Assembly (NCBI RefSeq): GCF_027947535.2 | Contig: NZ_JAAGKO020000070.1 | Coordinates: forward strand, 1 to 32,641 | Source: Streptantibioticus silvisoli | GTDB taxonomy: Bacteria; Actinomycetota; Actinomycetes; Streptomycetales; Streptomycetaceae | Reading direction: 5' to 3' | Length of the DNA stretch: 32,641 nt | In this document: positions 29,109 to 32,492 of the stretch, piece after piece | Numbering within the stretch: position 1 is the stretch's first letter | How the letters are laid out: each line of letters begins with the position of its first letter | Program-made: the position numbers and the translations under genes | Notes under the pieces: model-generated | Told to the model about the DNA's origin: nothing | Databases searched by the model: none | Seen by the model: only the letters and a program-made list of their open reading frames with translations

Positions 29109-29558
29109 TTAGGCGTCCGGCGTGGTGAGGGCGGCGGCGAGGCGGTCGAACAGGCGCGTGAAGGTGGCGCGTTCGTCGTCGCTCCAGTCGGCGGTGGCGC
29201 CGTCGATCAGGCCGAGGAGGCGCTCGCGCATGCCGCGCACGGTCTGCTCGCCGAGGTCGGTGAGGGCGAGGCTGGTGGAACGGGCGTCGGTGGGATGGGC
29301 CCGGCGGGTGAGCAGGCCGGCCTGCTCCAGGCGGGAGGCGTAGCGGGTGGTGACGGTGCGGTCGAGCCCGATCTGCTGGGCGAGTTCGCTGGCCGTCGCC
29401 GTGCCGAGCCGCGCCAGGCCCGACAGCACCGGGTAGGTCGTCTCGTCGACACCGGCGGCGTCGCCGACCAGTACCCGGTAGAGATGGGAGCGGTTGGTGC
29501 GCAGCAGCAGGCTCCCGAATGTGGCGGCGATCCGCGCGGCGTCGTCGTGTCCGGACAT
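29109..29558 (-). CDS. MarR-family regulator
   Basis: A 149-aa winged-helix regulator. The DNA-binding part reads ATASELAQQIGLDRTVTTRYASRLEQAGLLTR, followed by the wing RAHPTDARSTSLALTDLGEQ. The terminal helices for dimerisation are present (length normal for MarR). Its ligand is unknown. An ORF reaches ATG 29591, but that start lies inside the operator-like array. The ATG at 29558 is preceded by TACTCT and 7 nt, suggesting a leaderless transcript. It is divergent from the 87-aa gene, which it probably represses along with itself. Confidence 0.88.
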   Translation of the reverse strand: MSGHDDAARIAATFGSLLLRTNRSHLYRVLVGDAAGVDETTYPVLSGLARLGTATASELAQQIGLDRTVTTRYASRLEQAGLLTRRAHPTDARSTSLALTDLGEQTVRGMRERLLGLIDGATADWSDDERATFTRLFDRLAAALTTPDA

Positions 29559-29565
29559 GCGGGCC

Positions 29566-29571
29566 AGAGTA
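29566..29571 (-). promoter_or_regulatory. -10 box for a leaderless marR transcript
   Basis: TACTCT on the minus strand, then 7 nt, then the ATG at 29558. Same spacing as at accR. Confidence 0.45.
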
Positions 29572-29581
29572 CGCGAGACAT

Positions 29582-29642
29582 GCACGTTCATTCAGCACGT
29601 TCAAAAAGCGCGTTCATGAAGCACGTGCATTTTGCACGCTCT
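29582..29642. promoter_or_regulatory. Five-copy 13-bp operator-like array
   Basis: GCACGTTCA-like 9-mers begin at 29582, 29595, 29608, 29621 and 29634, exactly 13 bp apart: two identical, one with a single change, two diverging. Separators are 4 bp. The array also contains GTGCA-TTT-TGCAC (29625-29637) and the palindrome TTCATGAA (29613-29620). It sits directly between the -10 boxes of the MarR gene (29571) and the 87-aa gene (TAGCGT, 29648), so it covers both promoters. Confidence 0.8.
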
Positions 29643-29647
29643 GCTGG

Positions 29648-29677
29648 TAGCGTCCTTCTTGTGCGAACGACTCGCAC
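29648..29677 (+). promoter_or_regulatory. Extended -10 box and leader inverted repeat
   Basis: TGG-TAGCGT (-10 at 29648-29653) fits an extended -10 promoter for the 87-aa gene. GTGCGA-ACGAC-TCGCAC (29661-29677) is a perfect inverted repeat in the leader, either a further operator or an RNA hairpin in front of the ribosome site AGGAGG. Confidence 0.45.
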
Positions 29678-29695: not shown

Positions 29696-29959
29696 ATGAG
29701 CCAGCCCGTGCGCCCCGAAGACCTGCTCCCCGACGGCGCGGACACCTGCGTCATCAACGACGTCGAGGTCCGCAAGGGCAGCGTCGCCGCGTTCGTCGCC
29801 AACGCCAAGCGCCTCGACGGTCTCGAACTCGGCACCCCCGAGGACACCGAAGTGCGCGCCCAGCTCCGCAAGCTCGTCCCCGCGCTGCGCGCCGTCGGCG
29901 TCCTCGACGTCTTCACCGTCCGATCCGAAACGCTCGCGGACCTCATCGCACACGCTTGA
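29696..29959 (+). CDS. Small conserved protein, probable MarR target
   Basis: An 87-aa soluble protein of unknown function. Features: PEDLLPDGADTCVINDVEVRKGS, then VAAFVANAKRL, and VRAQLRKLVPALRAVGVLDVF. The layout (short beta hairpin with K/TGS-VAAF, then helices and a G-x-x-D-x-F end) vaguely recalls the DUF7709 type, but I am not sure. AGGAGG lies 5-6 nt before the ATG. Divergent from marR across the 13-bp array, so strongly expected to be MarR-controlled. No membrane segment or Cys pair points to a role. Confidence 0.8.
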   Translation: MSQPVRPEDLLPDGADTCVINDVEVRKGSVAAFVANAKRLDGLELGTPEDTEVRAQLRKLVPALRAVGVLDVFTVRSETLADLIAHA

Positions 29960-30121: not shown

Positions 30122-30556
30122 TCAGCGCCCGGCGGCCTCGATCGTGCCGGCGGCTTCCGTGAGGGCCTCGCGGAGCAGGGCCGGGTCGGTGACGGCGGCG
30201 GCGTGGGCCGGGGGGACCAGCCAGCGGGCGCCGGCCTGCGGGGGGCCGGCGGCGAAGCGGCGGCCGTGGTCGCGGCCCGGCGCCGGACAGCAGGCGCTGC
30301 CCGGCAGGTCCCAGCCGGCGGCGGTGCCGGCCGGGACCAGGAAGCCGAGGGTCCGCCCGCCCCGGTCGTGCAGCACGGGTCCGACACCGGTGCGCAGCCG
30401 GAGGATGTCGACCGCCTCCAGGCCCTGCCGGCACGGCACGGTCACCAGGTCCCGGGCGGGACGGCCGGGCGGCGCCGGGTCGCCGCCGTCCGCGGCGGGC
30501 GCGTGACGTCCGCGGAGCACGGACGCGGACGAACCGAGTGCCTCAACGGTGTCCAC
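30122..30556 (-). CDS. Uncharacterised protein divergent from the XRE regulator
   Basis: A 144-aa soluble protein I do not recognise. Conserved-looking segments are DLVTVPCRQGLEAVDILR, GPVLHDRGGRTLGFLVPAGT, AAGWDLPGSACCPAPG and ARWLVPPAHAAA. The FLVPPGTA...WLVPP pattern recalls a streptomycete family sometimes compared with primase-polymerase N-domains, but no catalytic residues can be assigned. The GTG at 30556 follows GAGGAG; an in-frame TTG at 30613 is less likely. It is divergent from the XRE/TPR gene, a pairing common for streptomycete XRE regulators, so it may be its partner or target. Confidence 0.65.
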   Translation of the reverse strand: MDTVEALGSSASVLRGRHAPAADGGDPAPPGRPARDLVTVPCRQGLEAVDILRLRTGVGPVLHDRGGRTLGFLVPAGTAAGWDLPGSACCPAPGRDHGRRFAAGPPQAGARWLVPPAHAAAVTDPALLREALTEAAGTIEAAGR

Positions 30557-30836
30557 CGGGGAATCTCCTCGTCTCACTGCCGGGCGCGACACTGCCCGCT
30601 CATTGATGGACAACGCGGGAACGCGTCAACCGACACGCGGCGGTTCCCCGTCAGGAATGGCAGTTCATGGCACATGGTCGGCGGGATATCCGCTTTACCG
30701 CCACTTTGCGATGCTTTTCTCCGGGAACTCCCTGTGCCGGGTCGGTCACAGCGGGTACCGTCGTTCCGCCGTCGAGGCTCGTCGACCCGCTCGACTCGCC
30801 ACCATCCAGCGCGGACTCACAGCGGAGGACACTGCC

Positions 30837-32492
30837 GTGGCGCCCTCACCGTCCACCCGGCCCCCCGGCCCGGCCACGCCCAACCCCGCCTTCCGGCGGC
30901 TGCGCGGCGACCTGTCGCCGGGCGAGTTCTCCGCGGCGGTACGCCGGGCCGCCCGCGAGATCGGCGAACGGGTCAGCTGCGACGCCCGGTACGTGGGCCG
31001 CGTGGAGTCCGGCGAGATCCGCTGCCCCAACTACGCCTACGAGCGGGTCTTCAAGCACATGTTCCCCGGCCGGTCACTGGCCGACCTGGGCTTCGCACCG
31101 CGCGAGTCGGTACGCGGCCGACCACCCGGCGGCCCGTTCCGGAACCCGGCGGACGCCGGCGGACACCCCCGCCCCGACAGCTTCCCCGACCCTGTTGCCG
31201 ACAACTTCCCCGGCCCTTTCCCCGGCCCCCGCCCCGGCCCACTTCCCAGCAATGGTCCCGGCACCCCTCCCGGCTCCCTTCCCGAGACCCTTCCCGACAA
31301 CGGTCCCAACACCGTTCCCAACGACGGTCCCGACAACGGCGGTCCGGAGCGCGGTTCCGACAACGGTCCCGGTCCTTTTCCCCGCAACGAGGAGAGCGAC
31401 GTGTTGCGTCGCGCGTTCATCACACGGGCGCCGGCCGCCGCACTGGCGGCCGCACTGCCGATCGGGCCGGTCAGCACGGTCCCGCGGCAGGCGGGCGGCC
31501 GGGTCGGCGGCTGCGAGGCCCGTTCGGTCGAGGAGTCGGTGCGCCGCATCCGGCTGCTGGACGACCGGCACGGCGCCGACGGGCTGTACGCGCGGGCCGG
31601 CCAGTGCCTGCGGGAGGCGTACGCGCTGCTGGAGCGCAGTTCCTACAGCCGCCCGGTGGCCGACCGGCTCTACTCCGGCTCCGGCGAACTGGCGATCTCG
31701 GTCGGCTGGCTGGCGCACGACTCCGGGCGGCACGGCGAGGCCCGGTCGTACTACGCGGAGGCGCTGGCCACCGCCCGGGCGGCCGGCGATCCGGCGCTGG
31801 AGGCGCACGCCTTCTGCAACGCCTCCTTCCTGGCCCGCGACGACGACCGGCCGCGCGAGGCGGTCCGGGCCGCGCAGGCCGGACAGCAGGCGGCGAAACG
31901 GCTCGGCTCGCAGCGACTGCTGTCGCTGCTGGCGTTGCGCGAGGCCGGCGGCTGGGCCGGGCTGGGCGACCGCACGGCGTGCGAGCGGGCGCTGCTGCGG
32001 GCCCAGCGGTTGCTGACGTCCGGCGGCGGACCGGGCGACGGGGGGCCGGAGTGGATGACGTTCTACGGCGAGGCGGAACTGGAGGGGCTGGAGGCGCAGG
32101 CCTGGGCGGCGCTGGGCGACCACCGGCGGGCCGCCGCGCACGCCCGGCGCGGGGTACTGCTCCAGGACCCGCACTTCACCCGCAACATCACGTTGTACAG
32201 CGCCGAGTTGTCCGGCGCCCTGGCCAGCGGCGGCGAACCGGACGAGGCCGCCGAGACCGGCAACCGGGTGCTGGACCTGCTGGGCGACCGGGTCCGTTCC
32301 TCCCGCATCCAGGCCATACTCGCCGGTACCGCCCGCGCCCTCGCCCCGCACCGGCACCGCCCGGCGGTGGCCGCGTTCCTGGCCCGCAACGAGGCCGCCG
32401 AGACACTGAGCACCCCCGAGACCCCACCGGGACCGGCGGCCGGACCCGCGACCGGACCACCACCGGGCGCCCCCGGAACGCAGGCGGACTGA
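30837..32492 (+). CDS. XRE-type regulator with TPR domain (NsdA-like)
   Basis: A 551-aa regulator. The N-terminal HTH (about 15-75) contains LSPGEFSAAVRRAAREIG and ARYVGRVESGEIRCPNYAYE, then PGRSLADLGFAPRESVRGR. Residues about 100-185 form a Pro/Gly/Asn/Asp-rich linker encoded by repeat DNA. The C-terminal half is TPR-like helices (AYALLERSSYSRPVADRLY, GRHGEARSYYAEALATARAAG). This matches the NsdA/NsdB type, which represses sporulation and antibiotic genes in S. coelicolor; the role here is an inference. AVLRRAFITRAPAAALAAAL resembles a membrane or Tat-like segment between linker and TPRs. The GTG at 30837 follows GGAGG at 8 nt; the region upstream in frame is not conserved-looking. Confidence 0.83.
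   Translation: MAPSPSTRPPGPATPNPAFRRLRGDLSPGEFSAAVRRAAREIGERVSCDARYVGRVESGEIRCPNYAYERVFKHMFPGRSLADLGFAPRESVRGRPPGGPFRNPADAGGHPRPDSFPDPVADNFPGPFPGPRPGPLPSNGPGTPPGSLPETLPDNGPNTVPNDGPDNGGPERGSDNGPGPFPRNEESDVLRRAFITRAPAAALAAALPIGPVSTVPRQAGGRVGGCEARSVEESVRRIRLLDDRHGADGLYARAGQCLREAYALLERSSYSRPVADRLYSGSGELAISVGWLAHDSGRHGEARSYYAEALATARAAGDPALEAHAFCNASFLARDDDRPREAVRAAQAGQQAAKRLGSQRLLSLLALREAGGWAGLGDRTACERALLRAQRLLTSGGGPGDGGPEWMTFYGEAELEGLEAQAWAALGDHRRAAAHARRGVLLQDPHFTRNITLYSAELSGALASGGEPDEAAETGNRVLDLLGDRVRSSRIQAILAGTARALAPHRHRPAVAAFLARNEAAETLSTPETPPGPAAGPATGPPPGAPGTQAD
31165..31386 (+). repeat. Minisatellite coding for the regulator's linker
   Basis: TTCCC-RAC-RACGGTCCC words repeat with a 24-bp period near 31291-31340 (8 codons) and more loosely across 31165-31386. 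The products are LPDNGPNT/VPNDGPDN-like octapeptides and PGPFPGPRPG segments. The frame is preserved. Confidence 0.75.

Follow-up and report, generated by a model that had tools for sequence, protein, structure and literature searches.

A probable MarR operator enlarged into a row of overlapping palindromes at exact 13-bp steps in Streptantibioticus silvisoli

The window analyzed here, a 32,641-nt stretch of Streptantibioticus silvisoli DNA, carries toward its right-hand end a marR gene and a divergently oriented 87-aa gene (p87), with an array of short phased repeats between them (Table 1). The start of marR is probably Met12 of the listed open reading frame, at 29558 as in Umezawaea (L054), so that the whole array would lie upstream of both genes. 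In the presumed recognition helix of the MarR protein, LDRTVTTRYASRL, residues R67, T71, R72, Y73 and L77 are invariant across 12 aligned MarRs. A plain consensus scan found no sigma-70 promoter in the array region, and the −10 boxes were assigned by alignment with relatives; because the putative marR −10 lies so close to the ATG, the marR mRNA is probably leaderless. A terminator-like hairpin (29636-29653, 0.2 expected by chance) covers the p87 −10 and is possibly just a chance find.

Table 1. Features in and around the marR/p87 intergenic region (positions in the window).
Feature	Position	Strand	Evidence
marR, probable start 29558 (ORF extendable to 29591)	29109..29558	-	Pfam MarR PF01047, 48.3 bits (cut-off 24.6); Umezawaea ATG at the matching Met
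Putative marR −10, TACTCT, 7 nt before the ATG	29566..29571	-	Aligned by eye with Umezawaea TACCCT, same place
P0, weak palindrome CGCGAGACATGCACG, adjoins marR −10	29572..29586	.	Matrix score 5.9, rank 8; chance level singly
P1, palindrome CGTTCATTCAGCACG	29585..29599	.	Matrix score 13.5, rank 2
P2, palindrome CGTTCAAAAAGCGCG	29598..29612	.	Matrix score 8.0, rank 5; chance level singly
P3, palindrome CGTTCATGAAGCACG	29611..29625	.	Matrix score 11.7, rank 3
P4, full palindrome CGTGCATTTTGCACG, corresponds to O1 of orthologues, overlaps p87 −35	29624..29638	.	Matrix score 23.4, rank 1
Putative p87 −10, TAGCGT, 17 bp after GTGCAT (29625-29630) in P4	29648..29653	+	Spacing as in Streptomyces GTGCAA-17-TATCGT, by eye
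Probable O2 remnant TGTGCGAACGACTCG, 36 bp from P4	29660..29674	.	Matrix score 4.72; 12 window positions score at least that
p87, 87-aa gene, small conserved protein, probable regulated target	29696..29959	+	At least 40 homologous loci; model pLDDT 94.9

The array consists of five 9-mers at a step of exactly 13 bp: GCACGTTCA at 29582 and again at 29595, GCGCGTTCA at 29608, GCACGTGCA at 29621 and GCACGCTCT at 29634. An earlier note on this DNA had described one 9-mer recurring five times in this phase between the −10 boxes of the two genes. The phase is borne out, with 34 of 50 positions matching at lag 13 in the 140-bp intergenic stretch, a score that none of 5000 dinucleotide-preserving shuffles attained over lags of 6–30 (shuffle maximum 29), and the placement between the boxes is supported as far as boxes inferred by alignment allow. 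The recurrence holds for five units in phase and not for five identical ones: two copies are identical, two others are one base off and the last is two bases off. Scored with the consensus GCRCGTKCA, itself derived from the array, the five units reach 43, vs. 29 for the best place elsewhere in the window. Across the 8.7-Mb genome, a two-unit pattern occurs only at the array (where it matches in three registers) when at most one mismatch is allowed, at two further places with two mismatches, and at 51 places on both strands with up to three (vs. 13 for a reversed control pattern). Mismatches between units affect 4 of 45 positions in the 9-mers and 10 of 20 in the spacers (P = 0.005 after allowing for register choice). 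On ideal B-DNA the 13-bp step corresponds to a rotation of ~86 degrees, close to the quarter turn previously proposed. The 61-bp extent first given to the array is too short, as a weak leftmost palindrome (29572-29586) falls outside it.

In the collection of named genomes, at least 40 loci carry a p87 homolog (40 of the 80 candidate stretches listed were confirmed), and, among the matches listed, 19 of the 40 also encode a homolog of the window's MarR upstream of p87, in the opposite orientation. The 19 come from Umezawaea, Gordonia, Actinomadura, Pseudonocardia, Mycolicibacterium (two) and Streptomyces (13, from 11 species, two of which give two loci each); the Streptomyces loci are kin, so their agreement does not amount to 13 independent events. 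The closest relative among the matches listed is Umezawaea (73% identity for p87, 67% for MarR). All 19 carry a pair of palindromes that follow CGTGC-N5-GCACG exactly or closely: O1 sits over the p87 −35, and O2 36–40 bp further, past the −10. Second copies of the gene pair were seen in S. lydicus (L071, marR shortened) and S. chattanoogensis (L062, MarR match a fragment), both with their operators kept.

A symmetric matrix was built from 25 distinct O1/O2 sites at 34 loci of other genomes, the window being excluded; these loci include extra copies of some named species, and identical sites were counted once. We removed by hand the matches in the initial 85 bases of every upstream stretch, those starting CGTCCATTC (Kutzneria) and, at L048, those not starting CGTGC, and loci that yielded no site (L040, L052, L056, L065, L075, L079-L081) were left out. 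In the window, P4, P1, P3, P2 and P0 took ranks 1, 2, 3, 5 and 8 of 32,627 positions, and the five share a common 13-bp register; rank 4 (score 8.4) is at 29157, within marR. Because a matrix from other genomes picks out palindromes in a single register, the 9-mer GCACGTTCA is best read as the right half of one palindrome meeting the left half of the next, neighboring 15-bp sites overlapping by 2 bp (the CG common to each junction). The centers of P1–P4 have 10% G+C, vs. 73% in the window. P4 scores within the range of the relatives' O1 and O2 sites (15.0–24.8), and P0–P3 all score below 15.0. Away from p87, the highest score per locus lies between 2.3 and 13.0 across the 40 loci among the matches listed, i.e., chance level; since single scores of 5–13 thus arise by chance, P0 and P2 are credible by phase alone. 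Past the p87 −10, the inverted repeat GTGCGA-N5-TCGCAC (29661-29677) was considered as O2, but its half-site spacing is wrong, and the site at 29660-29674 is preferred as the remnant.

These palindromes bear on the binding mode. The earlier note had set the array apart from the palindromes usually bound by MarR proteins, which is not supported, since the repeats are themselves overlapping palindromes, the orthologs have inverted repeats at O1 and O2, and the exact GTGCA-N3-TGCAC, the motif the note had named in its refuting case, lies within P4. The locus combines traits of the MarR family (a winged-helix domain, PF01047, a conserved divergent gene and an inverted-repeat operator kept in orthologs). 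Because the matrix from marR/p87 operators of other genomes selects these sites, the array is very probably a MarR operator. Binding by a different regulator, with the neighboring marR incidental, appears extremely unlikely: among the matches listed, two sites scoring at least 15 are present in all 19 loci with marR (sites that helped train the matrix), and no site above 6.5 was found upstream of p87 in 18 of the 21 loci without a match to the window's MarR. What such a regulator would explain is the remaining three, all from Kutzneria (L074, L076, L078), where a palindrome pair at 33–37 bp occurs with no MarR match within ~2.5 kb on either side, although a MarR encoded elsewhere in the genome may act on these sites. 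Some MarR relatives unlinked to p87 also adjoin palindromes with, by eye, the same CGTGC-N5-GCACG core, which again argues against a different regulator. These are twin palindromes, GCGTGCGC-N-GCGCACGC or close variants, at L018, L020, L021, L024 and L026. A DUF4436 gene lies upstream in Kutzneria L074.

Overlap at 13 bp is not confined to the window. Among the matches listed, a third palindrome (O3) lies 13 bp from O2 in all 13 Streptomyces loci (scores 6.6–18.5), where the mean score is below −8 at every other offset from 5 to 21. The 9-mer at the O2/O3 junction is GCACGTTCA in three of the 13 and GCACGTACA or GCACGTGCA in six more, and in S. piniterrae both palindrome halves have changed together (CGTGT...ACACG), as expected of a palindrome. 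P1–P3 fall inside the range of these overlapping sites, and P0 lies below the weakest of them. The 13-bp phasing for which the earlier note proposed searching orthologous loci is found throughout the Streptomyces loci, and the six others among the matches listed, Umezawaea included, all lack a site at this distance from either O1 or O2. Overlap at 13 bp has thus arisen or been kept at two different places in the operator family, and the array is dispensable for basic function, all six non-Streptomyces orthologs being without overlap.

The Streptomyces sites also bear on whether MarR or a partner might read the 13-bp units as head-to-tail direct repeats and form a directional filament. Such a mode exists in Streptomyces: BldC subunits assemble head to tail on 9-bp direct repeats whose number varies among Streptomyces promoters (PMC5859096), a variation in repeat number that the present locus shares. 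The window's units do have a polarity, as at three of four junctions a right half meets one and the same altered left half, CGTTC, and GCACG forms three of the four right halves. This polarity is however not general, since among 11 distinct Streptomyces O3 sites the left half is altered and the right-hand GCACG intact in four, and in three it is the other way round. Moreover, dyad symmetry, lacking in a BldC-like unit, is present in P4 (with its perfect GTGCA-N3-TGCAC) and in the orthologous O1 and O2, MarR proteins possess a dimerization domain according to PMC6905112, and the BldC repeats as described (PMC5859096) have another length and another sequence. We consider this directional reading very unlikely, and retain that of overlapping dimer sites.

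We also searched for other arrays, intermediates and targets. An exact three-unit array (three registers) was found only in the window's genome among 394 actinomycete genomes; with one mismatch, four other genomes gave one match each, which is chance level, as a reversed control gave five matches in four genomes. We looked for intermediates, in which O1 would consist of two or three units, in 341 genomes from another family; four of these carry p87, three of the loci with two sites and one with one clear site (L117 is identical to Actinomadura L069 across the intergenic region, L109 had been found previously, and L119 is without a match to the window's MarR). A MarR-only search of 61 genomes, covering the window's genome and those of 60 relatives, gave a best identity of 53% outside the window, and of the resulting loci L009-L034 were examined for p87, which was present only in the window's own. 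The exact pattern CGTGC-N5-GCACG occurs at 24 places in the genome, with an all-A/T five-base center only at the window's site; with up to one mismatch it is not enriched (1119 vs. 1406 for the control per strand), and no further regulon targets are therefore proposed.

The restriction of the exact array to a single genome would be expected if the extra units were slippage-derived tandem duplications of O1, now drifting, with only P4 (perhaps one more) used by one dimer. Duplication would likewise leave exact 13-bp steps, each of P0–P3 is weaker than any relative's O1 or O2, and close orthologs function without extra units. Yet the palindrome halves are better kept than the spacers (P = 0.005), three of the window's sites apart from P4 retain ranks 2, 3 and 5, and Streptomyces keeps a 13-bp overlap at a different place, so that drifting duplicates seem an unlikely, if conceivable, account. 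The sequence comparisons make it likely that the array is the operator of the neighboring MarR, in which a single palindrome has multiplied into several overlapping dimer sites, an expansion that probably serves graded or cooperative repression.

Aligned by eye, the Umezawaea region runs marR start, 7 bp, −10, O1, 10 bp, p87 −10, and that of the window marR start, 7 bp, −10, 67 bp of overlapping palindromes, 9 bp, p87 −10, i.e., a single O1 vs. 67 bp (15 + 4 × 13), an excess of 52 bp. In the ancestral plan, a divergent marR/p87 pair would have had one 15-bp O1 serving both promoters and O2 past the p87 −10; O1 would then have grown into P0–P4, with P4 retaining the p87 −35 and P0 touching the marR −10. 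The sequences establish that the sites are present, in phase, conserved and rare; MarR binding at the array, its filling order and its cooperativity we infer. A MarR dimer would bind P4 first, turning p87 off, and rising MarR would bring more dimers to P3–P0, each displaced ~44 Å and 86 degrees from the last. The marR promoter would be closed last, making autoregulation later and more gradual than p87 shut-off, and a ligand would release the dimers. Judged by site score, P4 would fill first, P1 and P3 next and P0 at the end, and p87 would therefore be shut before marR.

How many dimers could bind at once was considered in an idealized geometry, with lobes assumed to lie at 18–22 Å radius and 4.5 bp on either side of the dyad. 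Facing lobes of neighboring dimers then come 28–33 Å apart, which is about one domain width, so that they approximately touch. Side-by-side occupancy is possible; alternatively, dimers on overlapping sites might be mutually exclusive, in which case every second site, 26 bp from the next and on nearly the opposite face, would be filled. The filament or wrapping raised by the earlier note is a geometric possibility. It is tempting to speculate that MarR dimers sit on all five palindromes at once, touching, ~four dimers per turn, in a helical nucleoprotein array whose site strengths set the order of p87 and marR shut-off, but we hold this full picture to be doubtful. In TetR-family dimer pairs, the dyads are closer together than 13 bp.

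Among described MarR repressors, CtcS of Streptomyces aureofaciens has a divergent target and one inverted repeat over promoter boxes, and ZitR of Lactococcus has two palindromes over promoter boxes (PMC6905112, PMC6372160). The present locus resembles both in its winged-helix MarR repressor and palindromes over promoter boxes, and CtcS in its divergent target, but has four to five overlapping palindromes at 13-bp steps where these accounts describe one or two. In the open-licence full texts retrieved, no MarR operator was found in which more than two palindromes overlap. Overlap of adjacent palindromes is a QacR-like trait: QacR and other TetR-family pairs (SlmA, CprB, CgmR) are described as two dimers binding overlapping palindromes cooperatively on opposite DNA sides (PMC6018408), unlike here in protein family and in the number of dimers, only two. 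IdeR/DtxR, again of another family, places two dimers on one 19-bp target, the authors favoring cooperativity carried by the DNA (PMC8464063). Unlike the BldC repeats, the array sites are palindromic. The loci form a natural series for one regulator, with two separate sites (Umezawaea and others), two plus one overlapping (Streptomyces) and five overlapping (the window's genome), which makes testable both the effect of operator multiplicity and helical phasing on a simple autoregulated repressor and the side-by-side packing of MarR dimers.

The p87 protein itself resembles DUF7709 (E = 1.2e-4), but at 22.5 bits it is under the Pfam cut-off of 33.3 and is not assigned to that family, on which nothing was found in the open-licence literature. 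Its structural model was built from 35 sequences (the window's plus those from 34 of the 40 loci; the other six, which were close duplicates or had uncertain starts, were omitted); no PDB match was found at E ≤ 0.001, and a further comparison gave a best Z of 5.3, which has low meaning for a helical protein. Homologs are rare but widespread: within the family, 10 of 394 genomes have one, the window's own included, and the matches listed range from actinobacteria to Legionella and Chitinophaga, with six more in Burkholderia/Paraburkholderia in a plasmid collection. In a tested subset, a simple open reading frame script showed mixed neighbors in other phyla, and several of the tested loci adjoin regulators, of AraC type in L083, L086 and L089 and of ABATE/CGNR type in L075. 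Downstream of p87, the window encodes an NsdA-family TPR regulator (30549-32492, 351 bits, cut-off 75).
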